The position numbers and the translations under genes are program-made. 64,000 nt of DNA from Sabellastarte sp. h YS-2021 (Eukaryota > Annelida > Polychaeta > Sabellida > Sabellidae): contig OZ024936.1 in assembly GCA_964017235.1 (NCBI GenBank), forward strand, positions 36,664,040-36,728,039, read 5' to 3'. The notes under the pieces are model-generated. The model saw nothing but the letters and a program-made list of their open reading frames with translations. It was not told where the DNA came from and did no database searches. Positions 3,581 through 63,140 of the stretch are shown piece after piece (the stretch's first letter is position 1; each line of letters begins with the position of its first letter).

Positions 3581-6489
3581 TGTTATTCAGCTACTTTTTT
3601 CATAGCTACAATATGGTGAGTAAGTTGCGTGCCTGTCTCAATAGCTAAGTGAGTAATAGCTACTTTTGGGCTTTTCAGTAACTTCCATCATGAGTAAAAT
3701 CACTTGTAACTTAAAAACTATTGCATTTAGAGAATTTCGTATAAATATGTTATTCAGCTACTTTTGGGTCAGCTATAACATAGTAAAATTTTAGACCTGT
3801 AGCTCATGGCATAGCTGAGTAATAGCTACTTTTAGGTTATCACTGTTGAGTAAATCGCTTATAACTTCAAAACTATTGCATTTAGAGAATTTCGTATAAA
3901 CATGTTATTCAGCTACTTTTGGGTCAGCTATAACATAGTAAAATTTCAGACCTGTAGCTCATGGCATAGCTGAGTAATAGCTACTTTTAGGTTATCACTG
4001 TTGAGTAAATCGCTTATAACTTGGAAACTATTGCATTTACAGTATTTTGTTTCAATATGTTATTCACCTATTTTGGGATCAGCTATAACATAGTGAAGTT
4101 TCAGATCTGTGGCTCATTGCATAGCTGAGTAATAGCTACTTTGAAGTTCTCACTATTGAGTAAATCACTTGTAACTTAAAACCTATTGCATTTAGAGAAT
4201 TTCGTATAAATATGTTATTCAGCTACTTTTGGGCCAGCTATAACATAGTGAAATTTCAGATCTGTAGGTCATGGCATAGCTGAGTAATAGCTACTTTTAG
4301 GTCATCACTATTGAGTAAATCAGTTGTAACTTGAAAACTATTGCATTTACAGTATTTTGCTTAAATATGTTGTTCACCTACTTTTGGGTCAGCTATAACA
4401 TAGTAAAATTTCAGACCTGTAGCTCATTGCATAGCTGAGTAATAACTATTTTGAGGTTCTCACTATTGAGTAAATCAGTTGTAATTGCAAAACTATTGCA
4501 TTTAGAGAATTTCGTATAAATATGTTATTCAGCTACTTTTGGGCCAGCTATAACATAGTAAAATTTCAGACCTGTAGCTCATTGCATAGCTGAGTAATAA
4601 CTACTTTGAGGTTCTCACTATTGAGTAAATCAGTTGTAATTGCAAAACTATTGCATTTAGAGAATTTCGTATAAATATGTTATTCAGCTACTTTTGGGCC
4701 AGCTATAACATAGTGAAATTTCAGATCTGTAGGTCATGGCACAGCTGAGTAATAGCTACTTTGAAGTTCTCACTATTGAGTAAATCAGTTGTAATTGGAA
4801 AACTATTGCATTTACAGAATTTCGTATAAATATGTTATTCAGCTACTTTTGGGTCAGCTATAACATAGTGAAATTTCAGACCTGTAGCTCATGGCATAGC
4901 TGAGTAATAGCTACTTTTAGGTCATCACTATTGAGTAAATCAGTTGTAACTTGAAAACTATTGCATTTACAGTATTTTGCTTAAATATGTTGTTCACCTA
5001 CTTTTGGGTCAGCTATAACATAATAAAATTTCAGACCTGTAGCTCATTGCATAGCTGAGTAATAACTACTTTGAGGTTCTCACTATTGAGTAAATCAGTT
5101 GTAATTGCAAAACTATTGCATTTAGAGAATTTAGTATAAATATGTTATTCAGCTACTTTTGGGTCAGCTATAACATAGTAAAATTTCAGACCTGTAGCTC
5201 ATGGCATAGCTGAGTAATAGCTACTTTTAGGTCATCACTATTGAGTAAATCAGTTGTAACTTGAAAACTATTGCATGTACAGTATTTTACTTAAATATGT
5301 TGTTCACCTACTTTTGGGTCAGCTATAACATAGTAAAATTTCAGACCTGTAGCTCATGGCATAGCTGAGTAATAGTTACTTTGAGGTTATCACTGTTGAG
5401 TAAATCGCTTATAACTTGGAAATTATTGCATTTAGAGTATTTTGTTTCAATATGTTATTCACCTATTTTGGGGTCAGCTATAACATAGTGAAGTTCCAGA
5501 CCTGTGACTCATTGCATAGCCGAGTAATAGCTACTTTGAAGTTCTCAATGTTGAGCAAATCACTTATAATTTGAAAGCTATTGCATTTAGAGAATTTAGT
5601 ATAAATATGTTATTCAGCTACTTTTGGGTCAGCTATAACATAGTAAAATTTCAGACCTGTAGCTCATGGCATAGCTGAGTAATAGCTACTTTTATGTTAT
5701 CACTGTTGAGTAAATCACTTATAACTTGGAAACTATTGCATTTAGAGTATTTTGTTGCAATATGTTATTCACCTATTTTGGGGTCAGCTATAACATAGTG
5801 AAGTTCCAGACCTGTGGCTCATTGCATAGCTGAGTAATAGCTACTTTGAAGTTCTCACTGTTGAGTAAATCAGTTGTAATTGGAAAACTATTGCCTTTAC
5901 AGAAATTTGTGCAAATATGTTATTCAGCTACTTTTGGGTCAGCTATAACATAGTGAAATTACAGACCTGTAGCTCATGGCACAACTGAGCAATAGCTATT
6001 CTCAGGCACTGACTGTTGAGTAAATCGGCTATAACTTGAAAAATATTGCATTTGGAGTATTTTGTTAAAATATATTGTTCACCTACTTTTGGGTTAGCTA
6101 TAACATAGTGAAATTACAGACCTATAGCTCATGGCATAGCGGAGCAATAGCTATTTTCAGGTTCTCACTATTGAGTAAATCAGTTGTAACTTGAAAACTA
6201 TTGCATTTACAGTATTTTGCTTAAATATGTTGTTCACCTACTTTTAGGTCAGCTATAACAGAGCAAAAATTCAGACATGTAGCTCATTGCATAGCTGAGT
6301 AATAGTTACTTTGAGGTTCTCACTCTTGAGTAAATCAGTAGTAACTTGAAAACTATTACATTTAGAGTATTTTGTTAAATATGTTTTTCACAGACGTTTT
6401 GGTCAGCTATAACATAGTGAAATTGCAGACCTCTATGTCATGGCATAGCTGAGCAATAGCTTCTTTCAGGTTCTCACTGTTGAGTAAAT
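3581..6489 (+). repeat. 155-bp tandem array in B copy 1, about 19 units
   Basis: GGTCAGCTATAACATAG recurs every 155 bp (3,767, 3,922, 4,077, 4,232 and onwards). The units contain the inverted repeat TAGCT-GAGTAAT-AGCTA. They fall into several variants that alternate along the array. Confidence 0.92.
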
Positions 6490-7310
6490 CATTGTATCCA
6501 ACCTGTAGGAAATCATGGGCTGGGAATCTGTTAATATGGTCCGATTTGACCTTGGAACCCTCCTTCAAGGTCAAATGAGGATAGCCAAACATAAAAATGC
6601 TTATAACTCGCTTATTATTGGTCCTAGAGGTTTGGAATGAAAACCAACCTATAGAAAATCATGAGCTGGGAATTTTTTGGTGTGGTCGGATTTCACCTTG
6701 GACCCCTCCTTCAAGGTCAAATGAGGATAGCCAAACTTAAAAGTGCTTATAACTCGCTTATTATTGGTCCTAGAGGTTTGGAATGGAAAACCAACCTATA
6801 GAAAATCATGGGCTGGGAATCTTTTGGTGTGGTCAGATTTCACCTTAGACCCCTCCTTCCAGGTCAAACGAAGATAGCCAAACTTAAAGTGCTTATAACT
6901 CGCGTATTATTGGTCTTGGAGGTTTGGGATGGTAAACCAACATATAGGAAATCATGGGCTGGGATTCTTTTGGTGTGGTCAGATTTGACCTGGGACCCCT
7001 CCTTCAAGGTCAATTGAGGATAGCCAAACTTACAATTGCTTAGAACTCGCTTATTATTGGTCCTACAGGTTTGGGATGGTAAACAAGCTACAGGAAATCA
7101 TGGGCTGGGAATTTTTTTGTGTGGTCGGATTTGACCTTGGACCCCTCCGTCAAGGTCAAACAAGGATAGGCAAACTTAAAAAGTGCCTATGACTGATTTA
7201 TTATTGGTCCGAGAGGTTTGGGATGGTAAACCATCCTAAATTCTTTGGCTGGGAATCTTTTGGTATGGTCAGATTTGACCTTTGGACCCCTTCTTCATGG
7301 TCGAACGAGG
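6490..7310 (+). repeat. 146-bp tandem array in B copy 1, about 6 units
   Basis: The phrase GGTCCTAGAGGTTTGG recurs at 6,620, 6,766, 6,912 and 7,059, a period of 146-147 bp. Each unit has GACCTTGGACCCCTCCTTCA and GGATAGCCAAACTTAAAAGT. Related units occur at 19,800-20,360 and 36,990-37,480. Confidence 0.88.
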
Positions 7311-7566
7311 ATATTGCATTTATAGTATTTCTTTAAATATTTTTAACCTACTTTTTACACTTAAACAATTACCTTGTTACTTTATTTCATAATACCATTT
7401 GCAGGGCACAACTTTTTTGTCCTTTTTTTCTGTCAGCTTCGGAATATCTTTCGAACATGCTGTTCAGTTACCATTTACTGTATTTCTGTACAGCCCTTTC
7501 CCTGATAATTATGCTTTCCTCTCATTATCACCATCACAAATCAAAAACATGCAGTCAGCTGACACA

Positions 7567-7594
7567 GTGCCCGTTCACGGGCACTCTCCTCTTG
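7567..7594 (+). repeat. 3'-terminal hairpin and end of B copy 1
   Basis: GTGCCCG, loop TTCA, then CGGGCAC (7,567-7,584) is a 7-bp stem followed by TCTCCTCTTG. Equivalent hairpins lie at 12,012-12,029, 18,789-18,806 and, with one stem substitution, 20,625-20,642. Confidence 0.75.
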
Positions 7595-10500
7595 TTATGT
7601 CGTCACTCTGCGGCGTGGGCGTACGCGTACGTGTGAACAACTTCTCCTCCAAAACTACAAGGCCTAGAGACATGCTGTTTTTTTTAAAAGATACCTTATC
7701 TATCGAGGATGAAAAATTGTTCAAGGCATGCAAATCTGTCTGTTTGCTAGAGACATTACAAGGGGGGTACCCCCACCAAAAGTGTGAAAATTTCAACACT
7801 TAATCACAATTTTCTCAGTGATTATTGCAGGGATTTCTCTCATATCTTGCATATATGTACTAGGCCACAGGTAGATTCTCTTGTGTGAGTATGAGACCTG
7901 GATCTGTCTTACTTTTTTTTTAATAAATTTTTTTAATAATTTTTAATGCATTAAAATTCATGAAATCATGCACAAAATCATTTATAACTTGAAAAGTGTT
8001 GCATTTAGAGCATTTTGTTAAAATATGTTATTCAGCTACTTTTTTCATAGCTACAATATGGTGAGTAAGTTGCGTGCCTGTCTCAATAGCTAAGTGAGTA
8101 ATAGCTACTTTTGGGCTTTTCAGTAACTTCCATCATGAGTAAAATCACTTGTAACTTAAAAACTATTGCATTTAGAGAATTTCGTATAAATATGTTATTC
8201 AGCTACTTTTGGGTCAGCTATAACATAGTAAAATTTTAGACCTGTAGCTCATGGCATAGCTGAGTAATAGCTACTTTTAGGTTATCACTGTTGAGTAAAT
8301 CGCTTATAACTTCAAAACTATTGCATTTAGAGAATTTCGTATAAACATGTTATTCAGCTACTTTTGGGTCAGCTATAACATAGTAAAATTTCAGACCTGT
8401 AGCTCATGGCATAGCTGAGTAATAGCTACTTTTAGGTTATCACTGTTGAGTAAATCGCTTATAACTTGGAAACTATTGCATTTACAGTATTTTGTTTCAA
8501 TATGTTATTCACCTATTTTGGGATCAGCTATAACATAGTGAAGTTTCAGATCTGTGGCTCATTGCATAGCTGAGTAATAGCTACTTTGAAGTTCTCACTA
8601 TTGAGTAAATCACTTGTAACTTAAAACCTATTGCATTTAGAGAATTTCGTATAAATATGTTATTCAGCTACTTTTGGGCCAGCTATAACATAGTGAAATT
8701 TCAGATCTGTAGGTCATGGCATAGCTGAGTAATAGCTACTTTTAGGTCATCACTATTGAGTAAATCAGTTGTAACTTGAAAACTATTGCATTTACAGTAT
8801 TTTGCTTAAATATGTTGTTCACCTACTTTTGGGTCAGCTATAACATAGTAAAATTTCAGACCTGTAGCTCATTGCATAGCTGAGTAATAACTACTTTGAG
8901 GTTCTCACTATTGAGTAAATCAGTTGTAATTGCAAAACTATTGCATTTAGAGAATTTCGTATAAATATGTTATTCAGCTACTTTTGGGCCAGCTATAACA
9001 TAGTAAAATTTCAGACCTGTAGCTCATTGCATAGCTGAGTAATAACTACTTTGAGGTTCTCACTATTGAGTAAATCAGTTGTAATTGCAAAACTATTGCA
9101 TTTAGAGAATTTCGTATAAATACGTTATTCAGCTACTTTTGGGCCAGCTATAACATAGTGAAATTTCAGATCTGTAGGTCATGGCACAGCTGAGTAATAG
9201 CTACTTTGAAGTTCTCACTATTGAGTAAATCAGTTGTAATTGGAAAACTATTGCATTTACAGAATTTCGTATAAATATGTTATTCAGCTACTTTTGGGTC
9301 AGCTATAACATAGTGAAATTTCAGACCTGTAGCTCATGGCATAGCTGAGTAATAGCTACTTTTAGGTCATCACTATTGAGTAAATCAGTTGTAACTTGAA
9401 AACTATTGCATTTACAGTATTTTGCTTAAATATGTTGTTCACCTACTTTTGGGTCAGCTATAACATAGTAAAATTTCAGACCTGTAGCTCATTGCATAGC
9501 TGAGTAATAACTACTTTGAGGTTCTCACTATTGAGTAAATCAGTTGTAATTGCAAAACTATTGCATTTAGAGAATTTAGTATAAATATGTTATTCAGCTA
9601 CTTTTGGGTCAGCTATAACATAGTAAAATTTCAGACCTGTAGCTCATGGCATAGCTGAGTAATAGCTACTTTTAGGTCATCACTATTGAGTAAATCAGTT
9701 GTAACTTGAAAACTCTTGCATGTACAGTATTTTGCTTAAATATGTTGTTCACCTACTTTTGGGTCAGCTATAACACAGTAAAATTTCAGACCTGTAGCTC
9801 ATGGCATAGCTGAGTAATAGTTACTTTGAGGTTATCACTGTTGAGTAAATCGCTTATAACTTGGAAATTATTGCATTTAGAGTATTTTGTTTCAATATGT
9901 TATTCACCTATTTTGGGGTCAGCTATAACATAGTGAAGTTCCAGACCTGTGACTCATTGCATAGCCGAGTAATAGCTACTTTGAAGTTCTCAATGTTGAG
10001 CAAATCACTTATAATTTGAAAGCTATTGCATTTAGAGAATTTGGTATAAATATGTTATTCAGCTACTTTTGGGTCAGCTATAACATAGTAAAATTTCAGA
10101 CCTGTAGCTCATGGCATAGCTGAGTAATAGCTACTTTTAGGTTATCACTGTTGAGTAAATCACTTATAACTTGGAAACTATTGCATTTAGAGTATTTTGT
10201 TGCAATATGTTATTCACCTATTTTGGGGTCAGCTATAACATAGTGAAGTTCCAGACCTGTGGCTCATTGCATAGCTGAGTAATAGCTACTTTGAAGTTCT
10301 CACTGTTGAGTAAATCAGTTGTAATTGGAAAACTATTGCCTTTACAGAAATTTGTGCAAATATGTTATTCAGCTACTTTTGGGTCAGCTATAACATAGTG
10401 AAATTACAGACCTGTAGCTCATGGCACAACTGAGCAATAGCTATTCTCAGGCACTGACTGTTGAGTAAATCGGCTATAACTTGAAAAATATTGCATTTGG

Positions 10501-12039
10501 AGTATTTTGTTAAAATATATTGTTCACCTACTTTTGGGTTAGCTATAACATAGTGAAATTACAGACCTATAGCTCATGGCATAGCGGAGCAATAGCTATT
10601 TTCAGGTTCTCACTATTGAGTAAATCAGTTGTAACTTGAAAACTATTGCATTTACAGTATTTTGCTTAAATATGTTGTTCACCTACTTTTAGGTCAGCTA
10701 TAACAGAGCAAAAATTCAGACATGTAGCTCATTGCATAGCTGAGTAATAGTTACTTTGAGGTTCTCACTCTTGAGTAAATCAGTAGTAACTTGAAAACTA
10801 TTACATTTAGAGTATTTTGTTAAATATGTTTTTCACAGACGTTTTGGTCAGCTATAACATAGTGAAATTGCAGACCTCTATGTCATGGCATAGCTGAGCA
10901 ATAGCTTCTTTCAGGTTCTCACTGTTGAGTAAATCATTGTATCCAACCTGTAGGAAATCATGGGCTGGGAATCTGTTAATATGGTCCGATTTGACCTTGG
11001 AACCCTCCTTCAAGGTCAAATGAGGATAGCCAAACATAAAAGTGCTTATAACTCGCTTATTATTGGTCCTAGAGGTTTGGAATGAAAACCAACCTATAGA
11101 AAATCATGAGCTGGGAATTTTTTGGTGTGGTCGGATTTCACCTTGGACCCCTCCTTCAAGGTCAAATGAGGATAGCCAAACTTAAAAGTGCTTATAACTC
11201 GCTTATTATTGGTCCTAGAGGTTTGGAATGGAAAACCAACCTATAGAAAATCATGGGCTGGGAATCTTTTGGTGTGGTCAGATTTCACCTTAGACCCCTC
11301 CTTCCAGGTCAAACGAAGATAGCCAAACTTAAAGTGCTTATAACTCGCGTATTATTGGTCTTGGAGGTTTGGGATGGTAAACCAACATATAGGAAATCAT
11401 GGGCTGGGATTCTTTTGGTGTGGTCAGATTTGACCTGGGACCCCTCCTTCAAGGTCAATTGAGGATAGCCAAACTTACAATTGCTTAGAACTCGCTTATT
11501 ATTGGTCCTACAGGTTTGGGATGGTAAACAAGCTACAGGAAATCATGGGCTGGGAATTTTTTTGTGTGGTCGGATTTGACCTTGGACCCCTCCGTCAAGG
11601 TCAAACAAGGATAGGCAAACTTAAAAAGTGCCTATGACTGATTTATTATTGGTCCGAGAGGTTTGGGATGGTAAACCATCCTAAATTCTTTGGCTGGGAA
11701 TCTTTTGGTATGGTCAGATTTGACCTTTGGACCCCTTCTTCATGGTCGAACGAGGATATTGCATTTATAGTATTTCTTTAAATATTTTTAACCTACTTTT
11801 TACACTTAAACAATTACCTTGTTACTTTATTTCATAATACCATTTGCAGGGCACAACTTTTTTGTCTTTTTTTTCTGTCAGCTTCGGAATATCTTTCGAA
11901 CATGCTGTTCAGTTACCATTTACTGTATTTCTGTACAGCCCTTTCCCTGATAATTATGCTTTCCTCTCATTATCACCATCACAAATCAAAAACATTCAGT
12001 CAGCTGACACAGTGCCCGTTCACGGGCACTCTCCTCTTG
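7595..12039 (+). mobile_element. Family B element, copy 2 of the trimer
   Basis: It starts immediately after the CTTG end of copy 1 and is almost identical to copy 1. Most differences are single bases, plus short indels in the leader. The 155-bp array (8,027-10,935) has the same length as in copy 1 (2,909 bp). The 146-bp array is at 10,936-11,755 and the 3' hairpin at 12,012-12,029. Near-identity indicates a recent duplication or multi-copy insertion. Confidence 0.75.
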
Positions 12040-15000
12040 TTATGTCGTCACTCTGCGGCGTGGGCGTACGCGTACGCGCGAACAACTTCTCCTCCAAAAC
12101 TACAAGGCCTAGAGACATGCTGTTTTTTTTAAAAGATACCTTATCTATCGAGGATGAAAAATTGTTCAAGGCATGCAAATCTGTCTGTTCGTCTGTTTGC
12201 TAGAGACATTACAAGGGGGGTACCCCCACCAAAAGTGTGAAAATTTCAACACTTAATCACAATTTTCTCAGTGATTATTGCAGGGATTTCTCTCATATCT
12301 TGCATATATGTACTAGGCCAGAGGTAGATTCTCTTGTGTGAGTATGAGACCTGGATCTGTCTTACTTTTTTTTTAATAAATTTTTTTAATAATTTTTAAT
12401 GCATTAAAATTCATGAAATCATGCACAAAATCATTTATAACTTGAAAAGTGTTGCATTTAGAGCATTTTGTTAAAATATGTTATTCAGCTACTTTTTTCA
12501 TAGCTACAATATGGTGAGTAAGTTGGGTGCCTGTCTCAATAGCTAAGTGAGTAATAGCTACTTTTGGGCTTTTCAGTAACTTCCATCATGAGTAAAATCA
12601 CTTGTAACTTAAAAACTATTGCATTTAGAGAATTTCGTATAAATATGTTATTCAGCTACTTTTGGGTCAACTATAACATAGTAAAATTTTAGACCTGTAG
12701 CTCATGGCATAGCTGAGTAATAGCTACTTTTAGGTTATCACTGTTGAGTAAATCGCTTATAACTTCAAAACTATTGGATTTAGATAATTTCGTATAAATA
12801 TGTTATTCAGCTACTTTTGGGTCAGCTATAACATAGTAAAATTTCAGACCTGTAGCTCATGGCATAGCTGAGTAATAGCTACTTTTAGGTTATCACTGTT
12901 GAGTAAATCGCTTATAACTTGGAAACTATTGCATTTACAGTATTTTGTTTCCTATGTTATTCACCTATTTTGGGATCAGCTATAACATAGTGAAGTTTCA
13001 GATCTGTGGCTCATTGCATAGCTGAGTAATAGCTACTTTGAAGTTCTCACTATTGAGTAAATCACTTGTAACTTAAAACCTATTGCATTTAGAGAATTTC
13101 GTATAAATATGTTATTCAGCTACTTTTGGGCCAGCTATAACATAGTGAAATTTCAGATCTGTAGGTCATGGCATAGCTGAGTAATAGCTACTTTAAAGTT
13201 CTCACTATTGAGTAAATCAGTTGTAATTGGAAAACTATTGCATTTAGAGTATTTCGTATAAATATGTTATTCAGCTACTTTTGGGTCAGCTATAACATAG
13301 TAAAATTTCAGACCTGTAGCTCATGGCATAGCTGAGTAATAGCTACTTTTAGGTCATCACTATTGAGTAAATCAGTTGTAACTTCAAAACTATTGCATTT
13401 ACAGTATTTTGCTTAAATATGTTGTTCACCTACTTTTGGGTCAGCTATAACATAGTAAAATTTCAGACCTGTAGCTCATGGCATAGCTGAGTAATAGCTA
13501 CTTTGAGGTTATCACTGTTGCGTAAATCGCTTATAACTTGGAAATTATTACATTTAGAGTATTTTGTTTCAATATGTTATTCACTTATTTTGGGGTCAGC
13601 TATAACATAGTGAAGTTCCAGACCTGTGACTCATTGCATAGCTGAGTAATAGCTACTTTGAAGTTCTCAATGCTGAGCAAATCACTTATAATTTGAAAAC
13701 TATTGCATTTAGAGAATTTAGTATAAATATGTTATTCAGCTACTTTTGGGTCAGCTATAACATAGTAAAATTTCAGACCTGTAGCTCATGGCATAGCTGA
13801 GTAATAGCTACTTTTAGGTCATCACTATTGAGTAAATCAGTTGTAACTTGAAAACTATTGCATGTACAGTATTTTGCTTAAATATGTTCTTCACCTACTT
13901 TTGGGTCAGCTATAACATAGTAAAATTTCAGACCTGTAGCTCATGGCATAGCTGAGTAATAGCTACTTTGAGGTTATCACTGTTGCGTAAATCGCTTATA
14001 ACTTGGAAATTATTACATTTAGAGTATTTTGTTTCAATATGTTATTCACTTATTTTGGGGTCAGCTATAACATAGTGAAGTTCCAGACCTGTGACTCATT
14101 GCATAGCTGAGTAATAGCTACTTTGAAGTTCTCAATGTTGAGCAAATCACTTATAATTTGAAAACTATTGCATTTAGAGAATTTAGTATAAATATGTTAT
14201 TCAGCTACTTTTGGGTCAGCTATAACATAGTAAAATTTCAGACCTGTAGCTCATGGCATAGCTGAGTAATAGCTACTTTTAGGTCATCACTATTGAGTAA
14301 ATCAGTTGTAACTTGAAAACTATTGCATGTACAGTATTTTGCTTAAATATGTTCTTCACCTACTTTTGGGTCAGCTATAACATAGTAAAATTTCAGACCT
14401 GTAGCTCATGGCATAGCTGAGTAATAGCTACTTTTAGGTTATCACTGTTGAGTAAAACGCTTATAACTTGGAAATTATTGCATTTAGAGTATTTTGTTTC
14501 AATATGTTATTCACCTATTTTGGGGTCAGCTATAACATAGTGAAGTTCCAGACCTGTGACTCATTGCATAGCTGAGTAATAGCTACTTTGAAGTTCTCAA
14601 TGTTGAGCAAATCACTTATAATTTGAAAACTATTGCATTTAGAGAATTTAGTATAAATATGTTATTCAGCTACTTTTGGGTCAGCTATAACATAGTAAAA
14701 TTTCAGACCTGTAGCTCATGGCATAGCTGAGTAATAGCTACTTTGAGGTTATCACTATTGAGTAAATCACTTATAACTTGGAAACTATTGCATTTAGAGT
14801 ATTTTGTTGCAATATGTTATTCACCTATTTTGGGGTCAGCTATAACATAGTGAAGTTCCAGACCTGTGGCTCATTGCATAGCTGAGTAATAGCTACTTTG
14901 AAGTTCTCACTCTTGAGTAAATCAGTTGTAATTGGAAAACTATTGCCTTTACAGAAATTTGTGCAAATATGTTATTCAGCTACTTTTGGGTCAGCTATAA

Positions 15001-18000: not shown

Positions 18001-18816
18001 TGGAATGGAAAACCAACCTATAGAAAATCATGGGCTGGGAATCTTTTGGTGTGGTCAGATTTCACCTTAGACCCCTCCTTCCAGGTCAAACGAAGATAGC
18101 CAAACTTAAAGTGCTTATAACTCGCGTATTATTGGTCTTGGAGGTTTGGGATGGTAAACCAACATATAGGAAATCATGGGCTGGGATTCTTTTGGTGTGG
18201 TCAGATTTGACCTGGGACCCCTCCTTCAAGGTCAATTGAGGATAGCCAAACTTACAATTGCTTAGAACTCGCTTATTATTGGTCCTACAGGTTTGGGATG
18301 GTAAACAAGCTACAGGAAATCATGGGCTGGGAATTTTTTTGTGTGGTCGGATTTGACCTTGGACCCCTCCGTCAAGGTCAAACAAGGATAGGCAAACTTA
18401 AAAAGTGCCTATGACTGATTTATTATTGGTCCGAGAGGTTTGGGATGGTAAACCATCCTAAATTCTTTGGCTGGGAATCTTTTGGTATGGTCAGATTTGA
18501 CCTTTGGACCCCTTCTTCATGGTCGAACGAGGATATTGCATTTATAGTATTTCTTTAAATATTTTTAACCTACTTTTTACACTTAAACAATTACCTTGTT
18601 ACTTTATTTCATAATACCATTTGCAGGGCACAACTTTTTTGTCCTTTTTTTCTGTCAGCTTCGGAATATCTTTCGAACATGCTGTTCAGTTACCATTTAC
18701 TGTATTTCTGTACAGCCCTTTCCCTGATAATTATGCTTTCCTCTCATTATCACCATCACAAATCAAAAACATTCAGTCAGCTGACACAGTGCCCGTTCAC
18801 GGGCACTCTCCTCTTG
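12040..18816 (+). mobile_element. Family B element, copy 3 of the trimer, expanded
   Basis: It has the same leader, 146-bp array (17,713-18,535) and 3' hairpin (18,789-18,806) as copies 1 and 2. Its 155-bp array is 12,479-17,712, about 5,234 bp against 2,909 bp. The excess of about 2,325 bp equals 15 units of 155 bp. The expansion shows repeated blocks of about four units (for example around 13,430-14,350), as expected from unequal exchange or slippage within the array. Confidence 0.75.
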
Positions 18817-19024
18817 TTTATTTTTTGCAAAACACAAAAATGCTTATATCTTGAAAACCATGCTAGATAGAGCAGACTGCGCTGACTTTGGTTGCCACAA
18901 CAGTATAAGGCTAGAAACGAAGCATTTTCTTAATACTTTAGCACTCACCTTTATATCCTTTTCGGGACGCTTTGTTTTTGCTATGCAAAAAGATTATCTT
19001 TTTTTTTTGCGAGCGATCCTCTAG

Positions 19025-20652
19025 TTTTGTTTCAATATGTTATTCACCTATTTTGGGGTCAGCTATAACATAGTGAAGTTTCAGACCTGTGGCTCATTTC
19101 ATAGCTGAGTAATAGCTACTTTGAAGTTCTCACTGTTGAGTAAATCAGTTATAATTGGAAAACTATTGCCTTTACAGAAATTTGTGCAAATATGTTATTC
19201 AGCTACTTTTGGGTCAGCTATAACATAGTGAAATTACAGACCTATAGCTCATGGCATAGCGGAGCAATAGCTATTTTCAGGTTCTCACTATTGAGTAAAT
19301 CAGTTGTAGCTTGAAAACTATTGCATTTACAGTAGTTTGCTTAAATATGTTGTTCACCTACTTTTGGGTTAGCTATAACATAGCAAAATTTCAGACATGT
19401 AGCTCATTGCATAGCTGAGTAATAGTTCCTTTGAGGTTCTCACTGTTGAGTAAATCAGTTGTAACTTGAAAACTATTACATTTAGAGTAATTTGTTAAAT
19501 ATGTTATTCACAGAATTTTTGGTCAGCTATAACAGTGAAATTGCAGACCTCTATGTCATGGCATAGCTGAGCAATAGCTACTTTCAGGTTCTCACTGTTG
19601 AGTAAATCATTGTATCCACTGGATAGCCGCAGTGTGTAGAGAGAGATTTCACCATTACTGCTCTGATGAAAAAAAATATTATAGCTAGCTTTCTTAAGTT
19701 TGCAGTATATATTAATAACCATAAAATGTTGTCTGGGAATATTTTTGGCCTCATTTTGAGAAACAAGATGGCCGCCACAGGTGTTTTTTGTCAGTCATGA
19801 AAAGTGCTTATATCTCCCTTATTATTGATCCTAGAGGTTTGGGATGATAAACCAACCTGTAGGAAATCATGGGGTGGGAATCTTTTGGTGTGGTCAGATT
19901 TGACCTTCAATGACCCCTCCTTCAAGGTCAAACAAGGATAGCCAAACTTAAAAGTGCTTATAACTCTCTTATTATTGGTCCCAGAGGTTTGGGATGGTAA
20001 ACAGACAGGAAATCATGGGCTGTGAATCTGTTGATATGGTCCGATTTGACCTTGGAACCCTCCTTCAAGGTCAAATGAGGATAGCGAAAATTGAAAGTGC
20101 CTACAACTCGCTTATTAATGGTGACAGAGATTTGGGATGGTAAACCATCCCATAGGAAATCATTGGCTCGGAATCTTTTGGTATGGTCAGATTTGACCTT
20201 TGGACCCCTCCTTCAAGGTCAAATGAGGACAGCCAAGCTTAAAAGTGCTTATAACTCATTTATAATTGGTCCTAGAGGTTTGGAATGGTAAACCATAGGA
20301 AATCATGGGCTGGGAATGTATTTGTGTGGTTAGATTTGACCTTGGACCCCTTCTTCAAGGTCGAACGAGGATATTGCATTTGTAGTATTTCTTTAAATAT
20401 GTTTTAACCTATTTTTTACACTTAAACAATTACCTTGTTATTTTCCTTCATAATACCATTTACAGGGCACAACTTTTTTATCCTTTTCTTCTGTCAGCTT
20501 CGGAATTTCTTTCGAACTTGCTGTTCAGTTACCATTTACTGTATTTCTGTACAGCCCTTTTCCTGATAATTATTCTGTCCTCTAATCACCTTCACAAATC
20601 AAAAACACTCAGTCAGCTGACACAGTGCCTGTTCACGGGCACTCTCCTCTTG
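19025..20652 (+). mobile_element. Older family B copy, 3' part
   Basis: Right after the C element's CTAG end the sequence resumes inside a B 155-bp unit ('TTTTGTTTCAATATG'). It runs through diverged 155-bp units (to about 19,610), a block unlike the trimer (19,610-19,800, with AACAAGATGGCCGCC), diverged 146-bp units (19,800-20,360) and the B tail with hairpin (20,625-20,642) and CTCTTG (20,652). It is more diverged than the trimer copies. The C element therefore inserted into this pre-existing B copy; its 5' part lies left of the window. Confidence 0.65.
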
Positions 20653-20752
20653 TTTTTTTGTTTTGTGATAAGTATTTGTACTGGACTGTTATGTTCTGGG
20701 AGGGGAATTGGAATAACTTGCAGCTGAATAATTGTTTTTGGAATATTTGGGT

Positions 20753-20768
20753 GGCCCTGAAAAGGGCC
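20753..20768 (-). terminator. Histone-type mRNA 3' stem-loop
   Basis: On the minus strand this reads GGCCCT-TTTC-AGGGCC followed at once by ACCCA. It matches the replication-dependent histone 3' stem-loop consensus (GGYYYTTHTNARRRCC then ACCCA) at every position: a 6-bp stem and a 4-nt loop. It lies 32 nt downstream of the TAG stop of the MADF ORF, on the same strand, where histone genes place it. In known histone genes it binds SLBP and directs U7-dependent cleavage without a poly(A) tail. A clear purine-rich U7 site is not obvious; an A-rich stretch follows 10-20 nt downstream. Confidence 0.75.
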
Positions 20769-20800
20769 TGGCAGGTCAAAGACCCGCCCTGACTGGATGG

Positions 20801-22006
20801 CTACTGAGGAGGCTGCTGCTGTTGAGGCGGTGCTGTAGTGGTGATAGTGAAGAGTTGCGGCTGCTGCTGAGGCTGCTCAATGATCTGTGTAGATGTCAGA
20901 TCTGGTAGCTGGCTTAGTATCCCACTTAAATTGTGTCTACTGCCCTCGTCCTGTACTGTTAGAACTGAAGGGTTGCCAAAGCCAAGTGGGCTGGGTGAGT
21001 GGTAGACGTAACTGCTGCTAGCTGCTGCTTGGGTGGAAGTAGACGCCTGTTGAGTGGTTGTTGGCAGTATCCCAACCCTCTGGGACTCCGTGGTAATAGT
21101 GGCTGATCTTCTGGGTAGTGGTTGACGTCTACAGTTGCTCTTAATGCTTTCAATGTCTCTAAAAATTCTGCCCTTGAGGTCCTCAAACTCCTCTTGGGTC
21201 ATCTTTTCAGCCTCTGATGCCACGTAGTCAAAGAAGGGCTGCCTGTCTGACTTCTGCTGCAGGAAACCTGAGATCAATGTCCTCATCTGGTCAAAGTGCT
21301 CGAGTATCTTGGAGTCTGTTGAAACTGGTGTAGATGTGAACATAGGTTGACTCCTACTCTCCCTCAGGACACTGGACTCAAGGTGTTTTGTATCAGTAGT
21401 AGATCCACGCGATTCTTCATGCCTGCTGGTGTTGGGACTGGCCTCAAACCCTGAACTTCTGCTGGCCCCCTTTCGTCTGATGTGGGTCTTAAGGAAACCC
21501 ATCTGTTGGTAGACCCAGGACTGTCTCTTGGTCATCTCCCTTGGGGCTTGGCCAGATTGTAGTTTGGACAGCTTGCCATAACTCGTTCTCTGGGATTCGA
21601 ACCATCTTCTGACATCAAAGGGCTGGAGCTTCAGTTCTGCAGAGATTTCTGCCCAGAGAGCCTCCTTCTTCTGTCTGTCGTGGAAACGTGCATGCTCCTT
21701 GTCGTAGAGCTCTGGATGCTCCTTCACAAACTCCACAATTGCAGTTTCTTGGCTGTCAGTGAAAGTTGCACAGACCCTGGCTCTCTTGGCTGCCGAGTGA
21801 CTCTCTGAATCCTCTTCACACCTGTCTTCTTCTCAAGCTTCCTCAGTAACTTCCAAACGCTCCTCAGTCTCTTGTGTACCCTCCTCTGTACCCTCCTCCG
21901 TCCTTTCCTCCATCCTTTCCTCCACCTCTCCACTTTCCTTCTCCCTCTCCTCTTGCCTCTCATCCATCTTCTTCTTTCCTCTCTTCCCTCCTTTCTCTTT
22001 CCTCAT
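20801..22006 (-). pseudogene. MADF-BESS-like DNA-binding protein ORF with one in-frame TGA
   Basis: From ATG at 22,006 the frame runs to TAG at 20,801-20,803 (401 codons), interrupted only by TGA at 21,833-21,835 (codon 58). Codons 1-57 are Glu/Lys/Arg-rich and low complexity. After the TGA come an acidic stretch, a basic KRAR and a MADF (Adf-1/Myb-SANT-like) domain containing FVKEHPELYDKEH and RRWFESQRTSYGKL. Downstream are Ser/Thr-rich linker, a BESS-like helix pair (PFFDYVASEAEKM...) and a Gln/Pro-rich tail. MADF-BESS proteins are sequence-specific nuclear regulators; MADF-like proteins also accompany some PIF/Harbinger transposons, but no transposase or TIR is evident here. No ATG lies between the TGA and the MADF domain, so the domain needs read-through, splicing, a non-AUG start or a corrected base. 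No intron is evident in the downstream part. A TATA-like box lies upstream and a histone-type stem-loop downstream. The domain call is firm; functionality is uncertain. Confidence 0.7.
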
Positions 22007-22156
22007 TACTCCAGTCAATAGCAAAAAAAAAAGTAAAACGTGTCTCCTAACTGTAAAATTTGCCTTAAGCTCAAGTATTATGTGATATTTAAAAAACTGA
22101 AAACCCCTACAAAACAGTGACACACGTCTCTCAGTAGCCAACCAGTCAGTAACAAC

Positions 22157-22183
22157 GAGAATGTGTGCGCGGTCGCTTATATA
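22157..22183 (-). promoter_or_regulatory. Candidate core promoter of the MADF gene
   Basis: On the minus strand TATATAAG (22,183-22,176) is followed about 20 nt later by CACATTCTC (22,165-22,157). CATTC resembles the cap-site motif (PyCATTCPu) described for invertebrate histone genes. It lies 150-180 bp before the first in-frame ATG. The TATA-to-CATTC spacing is a little short, so the start site is tentative. Confidence 0.4.
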
Positions 22184-22239: not shown

Positions 22240-22640
22240 TCTTAATCGGTTCTTAGTCACATGCCTCCTGGGACGTCCTCAGACCGCCGCAGACTAAATT
22301 TGTGTTGTCCCAGGCGGCCTGAAGATGCCGGCTTGGATCGGTTAGGGTCAGCTTCTCTTTGTCGGGGCTTAGTCCCAGACCCAGATTTCTTAGTCCCAGG
22401 ACACCTGAGACGGTCTGAGGCTTCACGAGACTAATGAAACCAATTCCTCTTCACACGCATGAAACTTCAAAGATCTGTTATTAGTCGGGGACTGCCAAAC
22501 AGGCTTCCTGGGACTAAGCTACGGAGGCCTGGGACTAAGGGTCGCAGGACGCCTGGGACAACATAGGACTGTGTAAATTTGGGTCTGAGGAGGCCTGAGG
22601 AAGCCTGGGACTGGACATTTTGTTGTCGGCGGGAAATGAG
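22240..22640. promoter_or_regulatory. Cluster of CCTGGGAC/GTCCCAGG motifs, partly inverted
   Basis: About eight copies of CCTGGGAC, its complement or a near-match lie within 400 bp, many as CCTGGGACTAAG or CTTAGTCCCAGG. The left and right parts are imperfect inverted copies: GTTGTCCCAGGC near 22,300 against GCCTGGGACAAC near 22,551, and AAATTT with TCTGAGG elements on both sides. It is GC-rich and sits directly upstream of the candidate MADF promoter. It could be an upstream control region or the remnant of a foldback element. Confidence 0.45.
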
Positions 22641-22688: not shown

Positions 22689-23168
22689 GGCCACAACCGA
22701 CAATTACCGACCCTTACAAGACGTCTGGGTCTAAGCAAATATTTGAAACCGACTCCCAAAAACCCTTAATCGGGGAGCTTAGTGTGGTGGAACACCCACA
22801 TAAAATACAGCTCACACAGAAAACTTTATCATTTGAGATACACCCCAAACACAAGGTGGGAACTTTTACCTGTACAATACAACCCCAACATCAAGTAGGA
22901 ACTTGTACAGGTAAAGTACATACCAAACACTAGGTGGGAACTTAAAAATTAAGTACCTGGTAAAAGCTCACCTGGAAATCTGTACAGGTAAAGCAACAAG
23001 CACAAGAGGAAAAATCACTTTTAAATTTGCACAGGGGAAAGATAACTCATTTACCAAGTAGGAATTGTTTTCTCATCATATATTTAATAATATTAACAAT
23101 AACCTTATTGGCAGTATGTATGAGCTAGTATCAGTGTTTGTTCCTATACCTAACCTGTGTGATTGCAG
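22689..23168. other. Non-coding spacer with short dispersed repeats
   Basis: No gene is evident. Short phrases recur: GGTGGGAACTT (or TAGGAACTT) three times and TGTACAGGTAAAG three times between 22,840 and 23,000. The last bases (pyrimidines then TTGCAG) form the splice acceptor of the next exon. Confidence 0.5.
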
Positions 23169-23316
23169 GTTCAGAACACTGCAGATGGACTGAGTATGCT
23201 GCCTCTATTGCAACAGAATCTTGATGAGTTACAGCAGAGAGACCGGGCTGTGGACCCCAAAAACCACTTCAAGTTCAAGGAACTGCAGGAAAAGATAAAG
23301 GCCACAGTGTCTACAG
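23169..23316 (+). CDS. NSMCE2: NSMCE2/MMS21-like SUMO ligase, internal exon
   Basis: This 148-bp exon is bounded by TTGCAG and CAG|GTGATA. It encodes about 49 residues (VQNTADGLSMLPLLQQ..., then KFKELQEKIKATVSTG), a predicted helical segment of the kind that precedes the SP-RING and docks on SMC5. It ends in phase 1, and its last G joins AT of the next exon to give Asp with no stop. Assignment rests mainly on the neighbouring SP-RING exon. Upstream exons were not found in the window. Confidence 0.65.
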
Positions 23317-23700
23317 GTGATACTATAGTGAAATTTTCAGTGTGGTTTAGGAAGAACAGGTATCCTGCATTCTGTTTGATAATCACAATGAATTCCTGAA
23401 GAAAGTTTGTCACATATCAATAATGCACAAGTCCTTTGACTAATTAAAAAAATCAAGGAGGCAGAGTTGTATAAATGTGGTTTGACCTCTCTCTGGATCA
23501 TGTTGTGTCAGTTAAACTGAGTGATCAAAAAGGTGTTTCCTTGTTAGGTCCTTTAGAAGTGCAAATTTGCTGTGAAGTGACTGAGACCTTGAAACAGTTG
23601 TCTTGACGCAGAACACTCTTATTACACATATAGCTCCTAAACAAAAGAACTAATACATGCATAATGTAATTGACTTCTGTAAAGTGGCATTCACTTCTAG
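23317..23700 (+). other. Intron between the two NSMCE2-like exons
   Basis: The 384-bp intron starts GTGATAC and ends CACTTCTAG. The phases of the flanking exons agree (1 then 1). No other feature is visible inside. Confidence 0.65.
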
Positions 23701-23872
23701 ATGAGGAAATGGTCATGGAAGGGGACATAGCTATCTCTCAGGCCCAGACGTCCACTAAATGTCCAGTGTCTGGAAGTGAAATGAAGGACCCAGTGAAAAA
23801 TGCACAGTGTGGACACAGATACGACAGGGAGGCCATCAGACAACTTATGAGGCAGCGCAGAGGCAGGGCCAG
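23701..23872 (+). CDS. NSMCE2: NSMCE2/MMS21-like SUMO ligase, SP-RING exon (first half)
   Basis: The exon starts after CTTCTAG and ends at CCAG|GTAACA (172 bp). It encodes DEEMVMEGDIAISQ..., then TKCPVSGSEMKDPVKNAQCG and HRYDREAIRQLM. The pattern CPx6-7M.PV(K)N..CGH.Y is the first half of the SP-RING of NSE2/MMS21, the SUMO E3 ligase of the SMC5/6 DNA-repair complex: zinc ligands Cys and His, with the substrate-loop Pro-Val. The second half, with the CP...C zinc ligands, should lie in a later exon, which I do not find before 24,205 or in the repeats beyond. The gene may extend far to the right across transposon-filled introns. Confidence 0.8.
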
Positions 23873-24049
23873 GTAACATACACCTGTAAATATGTAAAAT
23901 ACGCATCTGTGCATCCCAAATTAATAAAAATATGGGGGATGTGCAGACAGCGATTTTAAACTAACAGTGACTGCGCGACAGTTGAGGGTTATATTATAAG
24001 CATTTACAACAATGATATATTCGTTAATTTGCTTTCTACACATCAATAC
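23873..24049. other. Presumed intron start, no feature seen
   Basis: AT-rich sequence after the donor site at 23,873, with no recognised repeat. Confidence 0.4.
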
Positions 24050-59928: not shown

Positions 59929-60212
59929 CAATTACTGCAAGTCAAGTCCGGTGCCGGTGGCCCGGCCAGTCAGTTCTGTGAAAAGTGTAGTAACAAGAAA
60001 CTCTTTTGTATCTGTTCCAACAAATGTTTCTTATCATGTTGTATGTCGTGTACCTACTGTAACAAGGTGGCAGTCACAAAAGAAAGACGTAAGGCCAAAA
60101 TCAAAGATCAAAAGTCAAATAAAGTGTGTGAAAAGTGCTTCTTTTGTCGGTCACTTTGTTTCTGCTCCAAATGTTCCAAATGTCCCCAATGTTGCAAGTG
60201 TCCAACCAGTGG
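59929..60212 (+). CDS. Cys-rich N-terminal part of DIRS pol, in frame with gag
   Basis: The frame of gag stays open after its TGA from 59,929 to 60,270. It encodes a Cys-rich segment (FCEKCSNKKLFCICSNKC, SCCMSCTYCNK, KVCEKCFFCRSLCFCSKC, CPQCCKC), a likely multi-zinc module. No ATG precedes it before 60,043, so expression from gag by read-through is plausible. At the G7 run (60,211-60,217) the sense passes to the -1 frame, where the RT continues (QSFWEIWAHKGANPKVVSIL). The G-run is either a frameshift mutation or a slippery site. Confidence 0.65.
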
Positions 60213-61326
60213 GGGGGACGTCTTCAGAGTTTTTGGGAAATATGGGCTCACAAGGGTGCAAACCCAAAAGTAGTGTCCATATTAAAGGAGGGTTATGTTC
60301 TTCCCTTCAAAGTAAGACCTCCCTTAGTAAGGGATCCCCTGATAGTAAGTGGCTATGCAAACCCCATCAGAGACTCCCACTTGCAAGCAGCTGTACAAGC
60401 TCTGATCGAGAAAAAGGCAGTAGAGAGGGTCAGGGTTCAAACCTCACTAGCCTTTTTCAGCAGACTGTTCATTGTCCCAAAGCCGAACCACAAGTGGCGG
60501 CCAATCTTGGATCTCAGTACTCTAAATCAGTTTTTATGCGTAAAAACATTCAAAATGGAGACTCCAGAGACAATCCGGACCTCTCTACAACAAGAGGAGT
60601 GGGTGACATCGCTAGACTTCAGCGACGCCTACTTCCACATCCCAATTCACTACACATCCCGAAAATTCCTCAGGTTCCACTTTCAGAACCAGTCGTACCA
60701 GTTTCGGGCACTTCCCTTTGGCCTGTCAACAGCTCCCATGGAGTTCACTGGTGTGGTCAAAGAGGTCAAGTTAATGGCTCAGTCACAGGGTATAAGAATC
60801 CACCAGTACCTAGACGACTGGTTGATTCGAGCCCCTACCAAAGAATCTTGCCACCAGGGAACCCAGTCCCTCCTAGCCCTTTGCCAGGAGTTGGGCTGGA
60901 TGGTAAACATGCAAAAATCAGAACTGGAACCCCAACAAGTCTTCGACTTCGTAGGCTACCAGTACGACCTACTCAACGGAGTAGTCAGGCCTACTCAAAA
61001 CCGTTGGGAAGCCCTTCAACAAAAAATAACAGTGCTTTTACAGAACAGATCTTGCCGAGTGAGAACTTTCATGTCTCTTATAGGTCTTCTCACTGCGACA
61101 GAAAAACAGGTGACCCTAGGCAGACTGCACATGAGACCTATTCAGTGGCACCTCAAGAAACACTGGAGAGTCCCAGAATCTCTGGAAAAGGAGATCCCAA
61201 TTCCGAGGTCTCTCCATCAGTACCTGCAGTGGTGGACACAAGAGGAAAATGTCCTAAAGGGTCAGCCCTTACACCCCCTGCGACACGCAGTTCAAATCTT
61301 TACAGAAGCCTCAAAAGAAGGCTGGG
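60213..61326 (+). CDS. DIRS reverse transcriptase domain
   Basis: Open in the frame of 60,135. Landmarks in order: ANPKVVSILKEGYVLPFK, WRPILDLSTLNQFL, WVTSLDFSDAYFHIPI (first catalytic Asp), LPFGLSTAPMEF, HQYLDDWLI (catalytic YLDD at 60,807-60,818), then the thumb/connection (FDFVGYQYDLLNGVVRP, RTFMSLIGLLTATEKQV). It copies element RNA to DNA. All visible catalytic residues are present. Its frame differs from the upstream Cys-rich part and from the RNase H part, so two frame changes bracket it. Confidence 0.9.
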
Positions 61327-62238
61327 GTGCTCAAAGGCGACTTCACAGCAAGCGGTACTTGGTCAGTGCCCGAAAGCAAGTTGCACATAAACTTCTTAGA
61401 ACTAAAAGCCGTGTTGTTAGCACTAAAAAGATTCCAACATTTAGTGCAAGGAAAGGTCGTCCTGATTGCCACAGACAACACTACGGTTGTGGCATACATC
61501 AACAAGGAAGGAGGTATGAGGTCAGGCTCACTCTGTGCCCTTCTTTGGCGGCTCCTATGTTGGTGCAGCCTCAATCAAATAGTACTGAAGGCCAGACACA
61601 TTCCAGGCCGTCTGAATGTAATTGCAGACAAATTGTCTCGCCAAAGGCAGGTCATTCAGACGGAGTGGTCCCTCCATCAAGAGACCTTCGACCTCCTTTG
61701 TCAAACCTGGCATTATCCCCGAGTGGACATGTTTGCAACAAGGTACAACTGCAAGCTAGTTCAATTTGTGTCCCCAATTCCAGACCCAAAGGCCTGGTCA
61801 GTGGATGCTCTGGCATTATCCTGGGAGGACCTGGACATGTACCTCTTCCCCCCAGTGTCTCTGATGGGGAAGGTGGTCAGCAAGCTGTCAGATCACTGGT
61901 ATCGCAGAGCAATCCTGATTGCCCCGGGATGGCCCAACATGCCTTGGTTTTGGGACCTAGTGGAACTATCTGCGAGGGTTCCTCTTTGTCTTCCACACCA
62001 CCCAGATCTAGTGACCCAACCTTTCAACAAGGCACGTCACAGGGATCTGACAAACCTAAATCTCCATGCCTGGCTCCTAGAGCCCAGACAATCAAGGAGC
62101 AGGGGTTCTCTAGCCCAGTGGCGTCAAGAATTGAGGCGCCTCAAAGACGTTCAACCAGAACAGTCTACGAAGCGAAGTGGGCCGTTTTTGTCAGATGGTG
62201 TGAAACAAGTCAGGTGGACTTCAGGAACCCATCTATAA
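61280..62238 (+). CDS. DIRS RNase H and post-RNase H domain
   Basis: RNase H begins in the RT frame (QIFTEASKEGWGA) and continues, after a frame change near 61,325-61,332, in the frame of gag (LKGDFTASGTWS, LHINFLELKAVLLAL, IATDNTTVVAYIN, ARHIPGRLNVIADKLSR). The first catalytic Asp appears as Glu (TEAS; the decayed copy has TDTS). Next comes VDMFATRYNCKLVQFVSPIP and APGWPNMPWFWDLVELSARV, which by position matches the region annotated as a Dam-like methyltransferase in DIRS elements; I cannot confirm a methylase motif. The frame ends at 62,238 and overlaps the recombinase ORF, as usual in DIRS. Confidence 0.82.
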
Positions 62239-63140
62239 AACAAATAGCAGATTTCCTCCTGCACCTTTTCCAGGAGAAGAATCTCCAGCCCAGCACTATT
62301 GATGGTTACAGGTCAGCCATTGCAGACAAACTGGGAAATACCTCGGTTAATGTCGGCAAGGATGAAAATTTGACTAGACTGTTAGACAGTTTTCACAGAG
62401 ATAGACCCAAAGGGCGCCGGGGGGTTCCTGCTTGGAACCTCTCCCTGGTTTTACACCAGCTTACAAAAGCGCCTTTTGAACCACTCAGAAAGGCTTCTCT
62501 GAAGCACCTTACTTTCAAAACTGTTTTTCTCCTAGCCCTGGCTTCAGGAAAACGCAGGAGTGAGATTCACGCTTGGTTAAACAAAAATATCAGACACCAA
62601 GCTGATTGGTCCAAACTTTCCCTCTACCCTTCACCAAGCTTCTTGGCGAAAAATCACTTGGCAAAAGAGGGACCAGAGTGCGTGGCCCCTGTGGTCATTC
62701 CGGCCTTAGCCCCCACTCTGGATAAGTCTTTAAAGGAAGACAGATCCCTTTGCCCCGTTCGGGCTCTTCGCTACTACCTGGACAAAACGCAGGACCTAAG
62801 AACGGGAAAGGAGTTAGTTTTTGTTTCATTCAAACAAGGTTTTAACAAGGACATCTCTCCTGCCACTATCTCGTCCTGGATCAAACAAACAGTAGTGTTG
62901 TGTTATGATCTCTCTGACCAAGATTCCTTGACCTTACATCAGGTTAAGGCCCATGATGTTAGGGCCTTTGCGGCCTCCAAAGCCTTTCAAGGTGGCATAT
63001 CTCTGGACCAGATTCTAGCAGCATGCCACTGGAAGTCCCACAACACCTTTACACAGTTTTACCTTAAGGATGTTGCCTGGGCAGATAAGGAGCTTTTTCA
63101 CTTGGGTCCTGTGGTGGCTGCCCAGCAAATCCACCACTAG
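62124..63140 (+). CDS. DIRS tyrosine recombinase
   Basis: The domain starts near RIEAPQRRSTRTVYEAKWAV and ends at TAG (63,138-63,140). It has a SAM-like N-terminal part (QPSTIDGYRSAIADKLG), then the catalytic domain: SGKRRSEIH (first Arg, 62,553-62,558), HDVRAFAAS (His 62,952, Arg 62,961) and THFTQFYL-type FTQFYLKD (Tyr 63,060-63,062). All R-H-R-Y residues are present, so the enzyme could be active. It joins the circular DNA intermediate to the target. The frame is open far upstream (from 60,135), overlapping RNase H in another frame, so the true start is not fixed. It is in the RT frame only because of the upstream frame changes. Confidence 0.9.
   Translation, partial: SRIEAPQRRSTRTVYEAKWAVFVRWCETSQVDFRNPSIKQIADFLLHLFQEKNLQPSTIDGYRSAIADKLGNTSVNVGKDENLTRLLDSFHRDRPKGRRGVPAWNLSLVLHQLTKAPFEPLRKASLKHLTFKTVFLLALASGKRRSEIHAWLNKNIRHQADWSKLSLYPSPSFLAKNHLAKEGPECVAPVVIPALAPTLDKSLKEDRSLCPVRALRYYLDKTQDLRTGKELVFVSFKQGFNKDISPATISSWIKQTVVLCYDLSDQDSLTLHQVKAHDVRAFAASKAFQGGISLDQILAACHWKSHNTFTQFYLKDVAWADKELFHLGPVVAAQQIHH

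Follow-up and report, generated by a model that had tools for sequence, protein, structure and literature searches.

Histone-type stem-loops at the ends of both genes of a PIF/Harbinger transposon suggest proteins made in step with DNA replication

PIF elements carry two genes, one of them encoding a MADF/Myb-like protein, and according to PMC9710019 both genes are required for transposition in rice and zebrafish. Harbinger3_DR of zebrafish and the rice elements have a DDE_Tnp_4 transposase alongside the MADF/Myb-like protein, terminal inverted repeats (TIRs) of ~15 bp and subterminal repeats, all of which are shared by the family described here, and a 3-bp target, which this family may share. 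MADF proteins of Harbinger origin also include ADF-1L of fish and those of co-domesticated insect pairs (PMC11893794, PMC9710019); these are domesticated genes, whereas the present family is still a transposon with terminal repeats. In replication-dependent histone genes, a 3' stem-loop and a downstream element recruit SLBP and U7 snRNP, which results in a cleaved, non-polyadenylated S-phase mRNA (PMC5706932 and PMC9756948). The histone 3' end has been regarded as nearly private to histone genes, and SLBP, according to a 2009 Drosophila paper (PMC2781718), had never been implicated in non-histone gene regulation. In the full-text literature, mostly open-access, without preprints and searched with terms that were perhaps too narrow, we found no transposon with histone-type 3' ends; the kind of transposon is already known, and its use of histone-type 3' ends is, as far as we have seen, new within the literature searched.

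Here we describe the 3' end of a MADF gene on the minus strand of a 64,000-nucleotide stretch (the window) of the annelid Sabellastarte sp. h YS-2021. The gene belongs to a PIF/Harbinger DNA transposon family that is widespread in the genome. Unlike the PIF/Harbinger elements named above, this family has a histone-type stem-loop and a host-like downstream element at the end of each of its two genes. With the host H3, H4, H2A and H2B genes the transposon shares stem-loop geometry, loop, ACC(C/T)A flank and downstream element, but it encodes a MADF protein and a transposase in place of a histone, its stems are GGCCC, GGTCC or AGTCC rather than GGCTC, and it has an extra upstream hairpin and tandem stem-loops.

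The 1.786-Gb genome, in which the window lies on contig C14, was scanned with GGYYYTTHTNARRRCCACC, the stem-loop followed by ACC, which gave 3,257 matches (1,671 + 1,586), compared with 7 for a reversed-pattern control. Twenty loci (L009-L028, of which L009-L016 are the same places as L001-L008) were drawn from the first 100 listed of these matches and all lie in the first 49 Mb of contig C1; four further loci (L033-L036) were chosen from the same 100 for their rarer stems. All 20 loci were picked through an exact MADF-side stem-loop, and the frequency of stem-loops on that side is not representative of all MADF copies; the transposase side was not used for locus choice. A MADF relative lies near the stem-loop in 23 of the 24 matches examined and transposase similarity in 22. 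The MADF gene of L016, which has no transposase match, was assigned through likeness to the L025, L020 and L015 frames, the transposase of L036 was assigned via the L015 frame and not the L009 frame, and in L035 neither similarity was found. The earlier note had named MADF relatives without a stem-loop as the observation that would count against it; no copy examined is of this kind, which is an unfair test because all were chosen through the MADF-side stem-loop. Diverged MADF/transposase subfamilies, whose stem-loops have different stems (GGCTC/GGGCC, which includes a G-U pair, and GGTCC/GGACC), occur in L033 at 2559 (-), in L036 at 2547 (+), and in L016 and L025, so that the trait extends beyond the main subfamily.

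Fuller copies of the element are ~5 kb long and carry two convergent genes with intron-free frames, one for the MADF/Myb-like protein and one for the DDE transposase. In L009 the transposase is a 443-codon open frame (6131-7459, minus strand, opposite to MADF) that matches DDE_Tnp_4 (PF13359) with E=2.5e-32. Both frames are open in L009, L010 and L011, with 405-406 aa for MADF and 436-439 aa for the transposase, and Pfam places a MADF domain in L009 (E=2e-11) and L011 (E=1.2e-11), as befits the Myb/SANT/MADF second gene of such elements. Where the elements of L009 and L010 align, they are 99% identical, which indicates that amplification is recent.

The left TIR, TGTGGGTGTTCCACCA, lies at 22785-22800 (minus strand) of the window with a TTA flank at 22801-22803, where homology between copies ends, and the same 16 letters occur without mismatch in the window and in 14 of the 20 loci. 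Both ends, TGTGGGTGTTCCACCA and TGCCCCTGTTCCACCA, could be located in 14 of the 20 loci as a pair of short TIRs. The left end stands 2,012-2,061 nt 5' of the MADF-side stem-loop in 11 of these 14 loci and 1,689-1,936 nt in three, and the right repeat begins 2,479-3,226 nt 3' of that stem-loop in 13, and 1,522 nt in L026. The 3-bp target-site duplication of PIF/Harbinger elements is usually TWA. Among the 14 loci with both ends, the 3-nt flank is TTA or TAA on the right in all 14 and on the left in 12, and the two sides are identical in nine. Inside the left end, at 22267-22612, a repeat search found subterminal repeats in direct and inverted orientation, CCTGGGAC, CTTAGTCCCAGG and similar; those at the right end of L009 resemble the ones of the window copy, and we regard them as candidate binding sites of the MADF protein. 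A putative E2F-type site, GCGGGAAA, is also present in the left subterminal region at 22629-22636 (+); four such 8-mers occur in the window and this one may be there by chance.

The window holds only the left half of the element, from 22800 to about 20650, and homology to the other copies ends ~+112 to +123 from the stem-loop; the transposase and the right TIR were sought in the window and neither is present. Abutting the broken transposon, at 20374-20662, is the end of another repeat. Its copies (7314-7596, 11759-12041, 18536-18826 and 20374-20662) end in the hairpin GTGCCCGTTCACGGGCAC-TCTCCTCTTGTT after satellite arrays, and may represent the terminus of a Helitron/Helentron-type element that has tandem repeats in its centre. 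Just beyond the left end of the transposon, two exon-like stretches (23163-23320 and 23670-23876, plus strand) resemble an NSMCE2-type SUMO ligase; zf-Nse matched 23736-23870 with E=1.9e-12, and the first stretch is putatively NSMCE2-like. When the last zinc ligands were sought by motif, the one match, at 18878, was not convincing. Farther off, a frame at 60171-63140 (+) has a reverse transcriptase match (RVT_1, E=4.7e-22) and weak tyrosine-recombinase matches, and we take it to be DIRS/Ngaro-like.

The MADF gene of the window copy runs on the minus strand from an ATG at 22004-22006 to a TAG at 20801-20803 (coding positions 20804-22006). The MADF (Myb/SANT-like) DNA-binding domain claimed by the earlier note is indeed there, at 21491-21736, as residues 33-114 of the piece 20804-21832 (PF10545, E=1.5e-12). 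Overlooked at that time was an in-frame TGA at 21833-21835, which stops the frame from ATG 22006 after 57 codons; the next in-frame ATG, at 21535, is already within the MADF domain. An intron that would remove the TGA was rejected, since inspection by eye revealed no pyrimidine-rich acceptor. AlphaFold2, run on the 343-aa piece without an alignment, gave a mean pLDDT of 44, with blocks of 73-88 over the MADF region. Pfam matched a C-terminal BESS domain neither in the window copy (E<=1) nor in L009 and L011 (E<=0.1), and by this absence the protein falls outside the MADF-BESS transcription factors. A PDB sequence search returned no relevant match, and PHROGs were likewise uninformative. In viral contigs a protein scan yielded 35 pattern stretches, none of them confirmed, and a 19-mer scan yielded no match; a 21-mer scan of genome contigs also yielded none, which is uninformative because only ~0.5 matches are expected under uniform bases. 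As to the histone-like promoter proposed from a TATA/CATTC pair, the TATA box TATATAAG exists at 22176-22183 (minus strand) and recurs in 10 of the 20 loci, but CATTC is just ~20 nt away, and a loose TATA..CATTC pair, found twice on the minus strand of the window, is weak evidence for such a promoter.

The predicted MADF transcript begins with 20 nt (22130-22149) that are complementary at 19 of 20 positions to 20789-20808, which spans the stop codon. This helix closes the fold predicted for the 1,404-nt transcript, and none of 300 shuffles holds such a pair; 16-19 of its pairs are kept in 13 of the 20 loci, with no two-sided changes seen. This 20-nt inverted repeat was considered as the boundary of a transposon and rejected, because no target duplication was visible by eye at its edges and because other copies place the true ends elsewhere.

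Downstream of the TAG by 32 nt, the minus-strand letters at 20753-20768 are GGCCCTTTTCAGGGCC, a histone-type 3' stem-loop of the form GGCCCU-UUUC-AGGGCC, identified by pattern, Rfam, fold and pair counts across copies. It is followed at 20748-20752 (minus strand) by ACCCA, the expected cleavage position, which stands where host histone genes have ACCCA/ACCTA. The earlier note had reported an exact histone stem-loop with ACCCA, and both the letters and the Rfam covariance-model search agree: RF00032 scored 35.8 bits (gathering score 34, E=1e-6), the sole gathering-level match among 4,227 families over the 64 kb. As to chance, which the note judged unlikely, the degenerate 16-mer has one match in the window (shuffle mean 0.03, matches in three of 100 shuffles) and the 19-mer GGCCCTTTTCAGGGCCACC, with up to 3 mismatches allowed, has one match in the window and none in 100 shuffles. 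The note was right in its claim of a histone-type 3' element on a non-histone MADF gene, and the statement that no histone-coding sequence lies nearby held when a histone frame was sought by tblastn in the 64-kb window (none found, best E 4.3). Directly 5' of the stem-loop, at 20770-20788 (minus strand), the fold contains an extra 8-bp hairpin, GGCGGGTC-TTT-GACCTGCC, present at the same position in six of eight loci compared, one of which has two letters changed. In the fold this hairpin leaves little of the 5' flank next to the MADF-side stem-loop unpaired, which counts against histone-type processing.

Beyond the end of the transposase frame, the exact sequence AGTCCTTTTCAGGACT occurs in 16 of the 20 loci, in one to three tandem copies; L034, outside these 20, has two. 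The number of tandem stem-loops varies between L009 (6050-6110) and other loci, as if copies were gained and lost. In L027 a G-U variant stands beside a broken copy, a tandem copy in L023 is also decayed, and no transposase-side stem-loop was found in L016, L025 and L026. After the last exact copy comes ACCA in 13 of 16 loci and GCC in L012, L015 and L020, and in most copies a downstream element such as AATATTCCAAAAACAATTA then follows. L015 and L020 have the identical 16 stem-loop letters although their transposases match that of L009 at just ~47-56%. The gathering score of RF00032 is passed on the MADF side in 17 of 20 loci and on the transposase side in none (31.5 bits in L009); transposase-side stems begin with an A-U pair.

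Pairing was counted over 52 candidate rows and the window (53 rows, set A2; 39 distinct), candidate rows being required to have the motif and at least four of six pairs, so that decayed copies such as one in L023 were left out. In the 39 distinct stem-loops, 233 of 234 stem cells are paired, while control structures slid along the rows are paired in 12-55% of cells. Two-sided change is seen in 27 cells over 2 pairs: pair 1 is A-U in 24 rows and G-C in 15, and pair 3 is U-A in 27 and C-G in 12. The percentage paired, the number of two-sided cells and the covariation score were reached by none of 500 shuffles; the remaining two of five measures, the number of pairs with two-sided change (488 of 500 shuffles) and the pair types (500 of 500), were not above shuffles. 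Because the changes follow gene side and subfamily, independent change events are few.

Host H4 (100% to a typed animal sequence), H3, H2A and H2B were located on contig C2, and the stem-loops 3' of all four are GGCTCTTTTCAGAGCC; the histone locus contains another H3 copy, matched over 110 of 135 aa, which has no stem-loop within the L032 stretch. In the window, the DNA at 20721-20740 (minus strand) resembles a histone downstream element, CAAAAACAATTATTCAGCTG, and is identical over 20 nt to DNA 3' of the host H4 stem-loop: host H4 continues ACCTATATCTTTCAAAAACAATTATTCAGCTG and the window copy ACCCAAATATTCCAAAAACAATTATTCAGCTG. L015 shares 22 nt with one host H4 copy. The host H2A/H2B element, CAAGAACTTTTATTT, has the same 15 letters on the transposase side of L015. 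The transposons thus show both host types of downstream element, H3/H4 and H2A/H2B, but with stems of their own. This bears on the proposal of the earlier note that the gene may descend from capture of histone control regions, which fits the 3' end, with up to 20-22 nt identical to DNA 3' of host H4, and finds no support for the promoter.

A different origin is by convergence, the stem-loop and downstream element having arisen within the transposon and been tuned by selection to host SLBP and U7, which is compatible with the other readings. In its favor, the host stem GGCTC/GAGCC occurs in none of the 53 rows of A2; L033, which is not part of A2, has GGCTC in the 5' arm but not its partner in the 3' arm. 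Against it, the four transposon copies compared have 19-22 identical nt with host H4 versus 13-16 with host H3, and the two sides of L015 resemble H4-type and H2A-type elements; convergence is possible but rather doubtful.

Unlikely, in our judgement, is that the mRNAs are polyadenylated downstream and that the stem-loop has another role linked to SLBP or exonuclease (stability, export, translation or decay as S phase ends) or serves as a fail-safe end. AATAAA or ATTAAA is found 99-184 nt 3' of the MADF-side stem-loop in all eight copies checked, so that polyadenylation further on is possible, and some histone pre-mRNAs can use either route (PMC9756948). Conservation of the transposase side also favors it. 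Across 17 rows the mean pairwise difference is 0.007 in the stem-loop (a value biased downwards, as all rows were required to have it), 0.077 in the next 4 nt, 0.147 in the downstream-element stretch, 0.149 in the 110 nt before the stem-loop, 0.176 in coding sequence and 0.364 from +26 to +60; the downstream-element stretch thus varies about as much as the DNA before the stem-loop (0.147 vs 0.149), which reduces confidence in histone-type processing. Such processing would also require pairing with U7; a human U7 5' end gave no significant pairing with the downstream element (-7.8, against a shuffled mean of -6.2, with 18% of shuffles as good), the query being human and not the host U7. On the other side, an ACC flank and a host-like downstream element are present, and a free-standing protein-binding hairpin would need neither; moreover, neither AATAAA nor ATTAAA occurs within 600 nt on the transposase side in four of eight copies. 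In the 35 nt 5' of the MADF-side stem-loop both signals are absent from all eight copies checked.

A further reading takes the hairpin for a palindrome of the transposon that acts in the DNA, for instance as a protein-binding site, or arose by chance, and that is merely histone-like. It gains something from the abundance of inverted repeats in the element, but it is very improbable given the sense-strand position beyond both convergent frames, the retained UUUC/UUUA loop, the usual ACC flank, the host-histone-like downstream element and the two-sided stem changes, on which a chance hairpin was rejected. A single host MADF gene that captured a histone 3' end, the lone gene of the earlier note, would agree with the one match in the window and is virtually untenable in the face of the genome search, with its 3,257 dispersed matches, the transposon termini and the convergent transposase gene; the gene lies in the broken half of one copy of a PIF/Harbinger transposon that is dispersed in the genome and whose fuller copies have the signal on both genes.

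We favor, with a probability of about three in four, the reading that the mRNAs of both transposon genes mature in the way of replication-dependent histone mRNAs, by SLBP/U7 cleavage and without poly(A), which would couple transposase supply to S phase. The parts of each gene end lie in the order of a 6-bp stem with a 4-nt loop, a cleavage flank of the ACCA type and a downstream element. Host SLBP would bind the stem-loop of the transposon pre-mRNA, U7 snRNP would pair with the downstream element, and the pre-mRNA would be cut after ACC(C)A to leave both mRNAs without poly(A). These would accumulate in S phase like histone mRNAs and then be cleared, so that the transposase and its partner would be made while sister chromatids exist and excision gaps could be refilled from the sister. 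Such timing would be useful to a cut-and-paste element because the sister chromatid can refill the excision site. The MADF gene, with such an end, would probably give a replication-dependent, non-polyadenylated mRNA, and the histone hairpin at the end of both Harbinger genes suggests that their proteins are made in step with DNA replication. The sequence shows the element, its two genes, a stem-loop on each, the two-sided stem changes and the likeness to host histone 3' ends; from these we infer SLBP/U7 use, lack of poly(A), S-phase coupling and a benefit to transposition.

For annotation, a match to RF00032 in such genomes is not necessarily a histone gene. With somewhat less assurance, we lean towards the broader view that an animal DNA transposon lineage has become replication-dependent: it would have acquired the host histone stem-loop and U7-type downstream element and kept them on both genes in several diverged subfamilies, its mRNAs would be confined to S phase through SLBP and U7, transposition would be timed to replication, and its many copies and the histone genes may be in competition for SLBP and U7 snRNP. 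If this is true, the family would constitute a large natural set of non-histone replication-dependent genes, would explain in simple molecular terms how a cut-and-paste transposon can time itself to S phase, and would offer a natural library, with variants of the stem and of the downstream element, in which to study the specificity of SLBP and U7.
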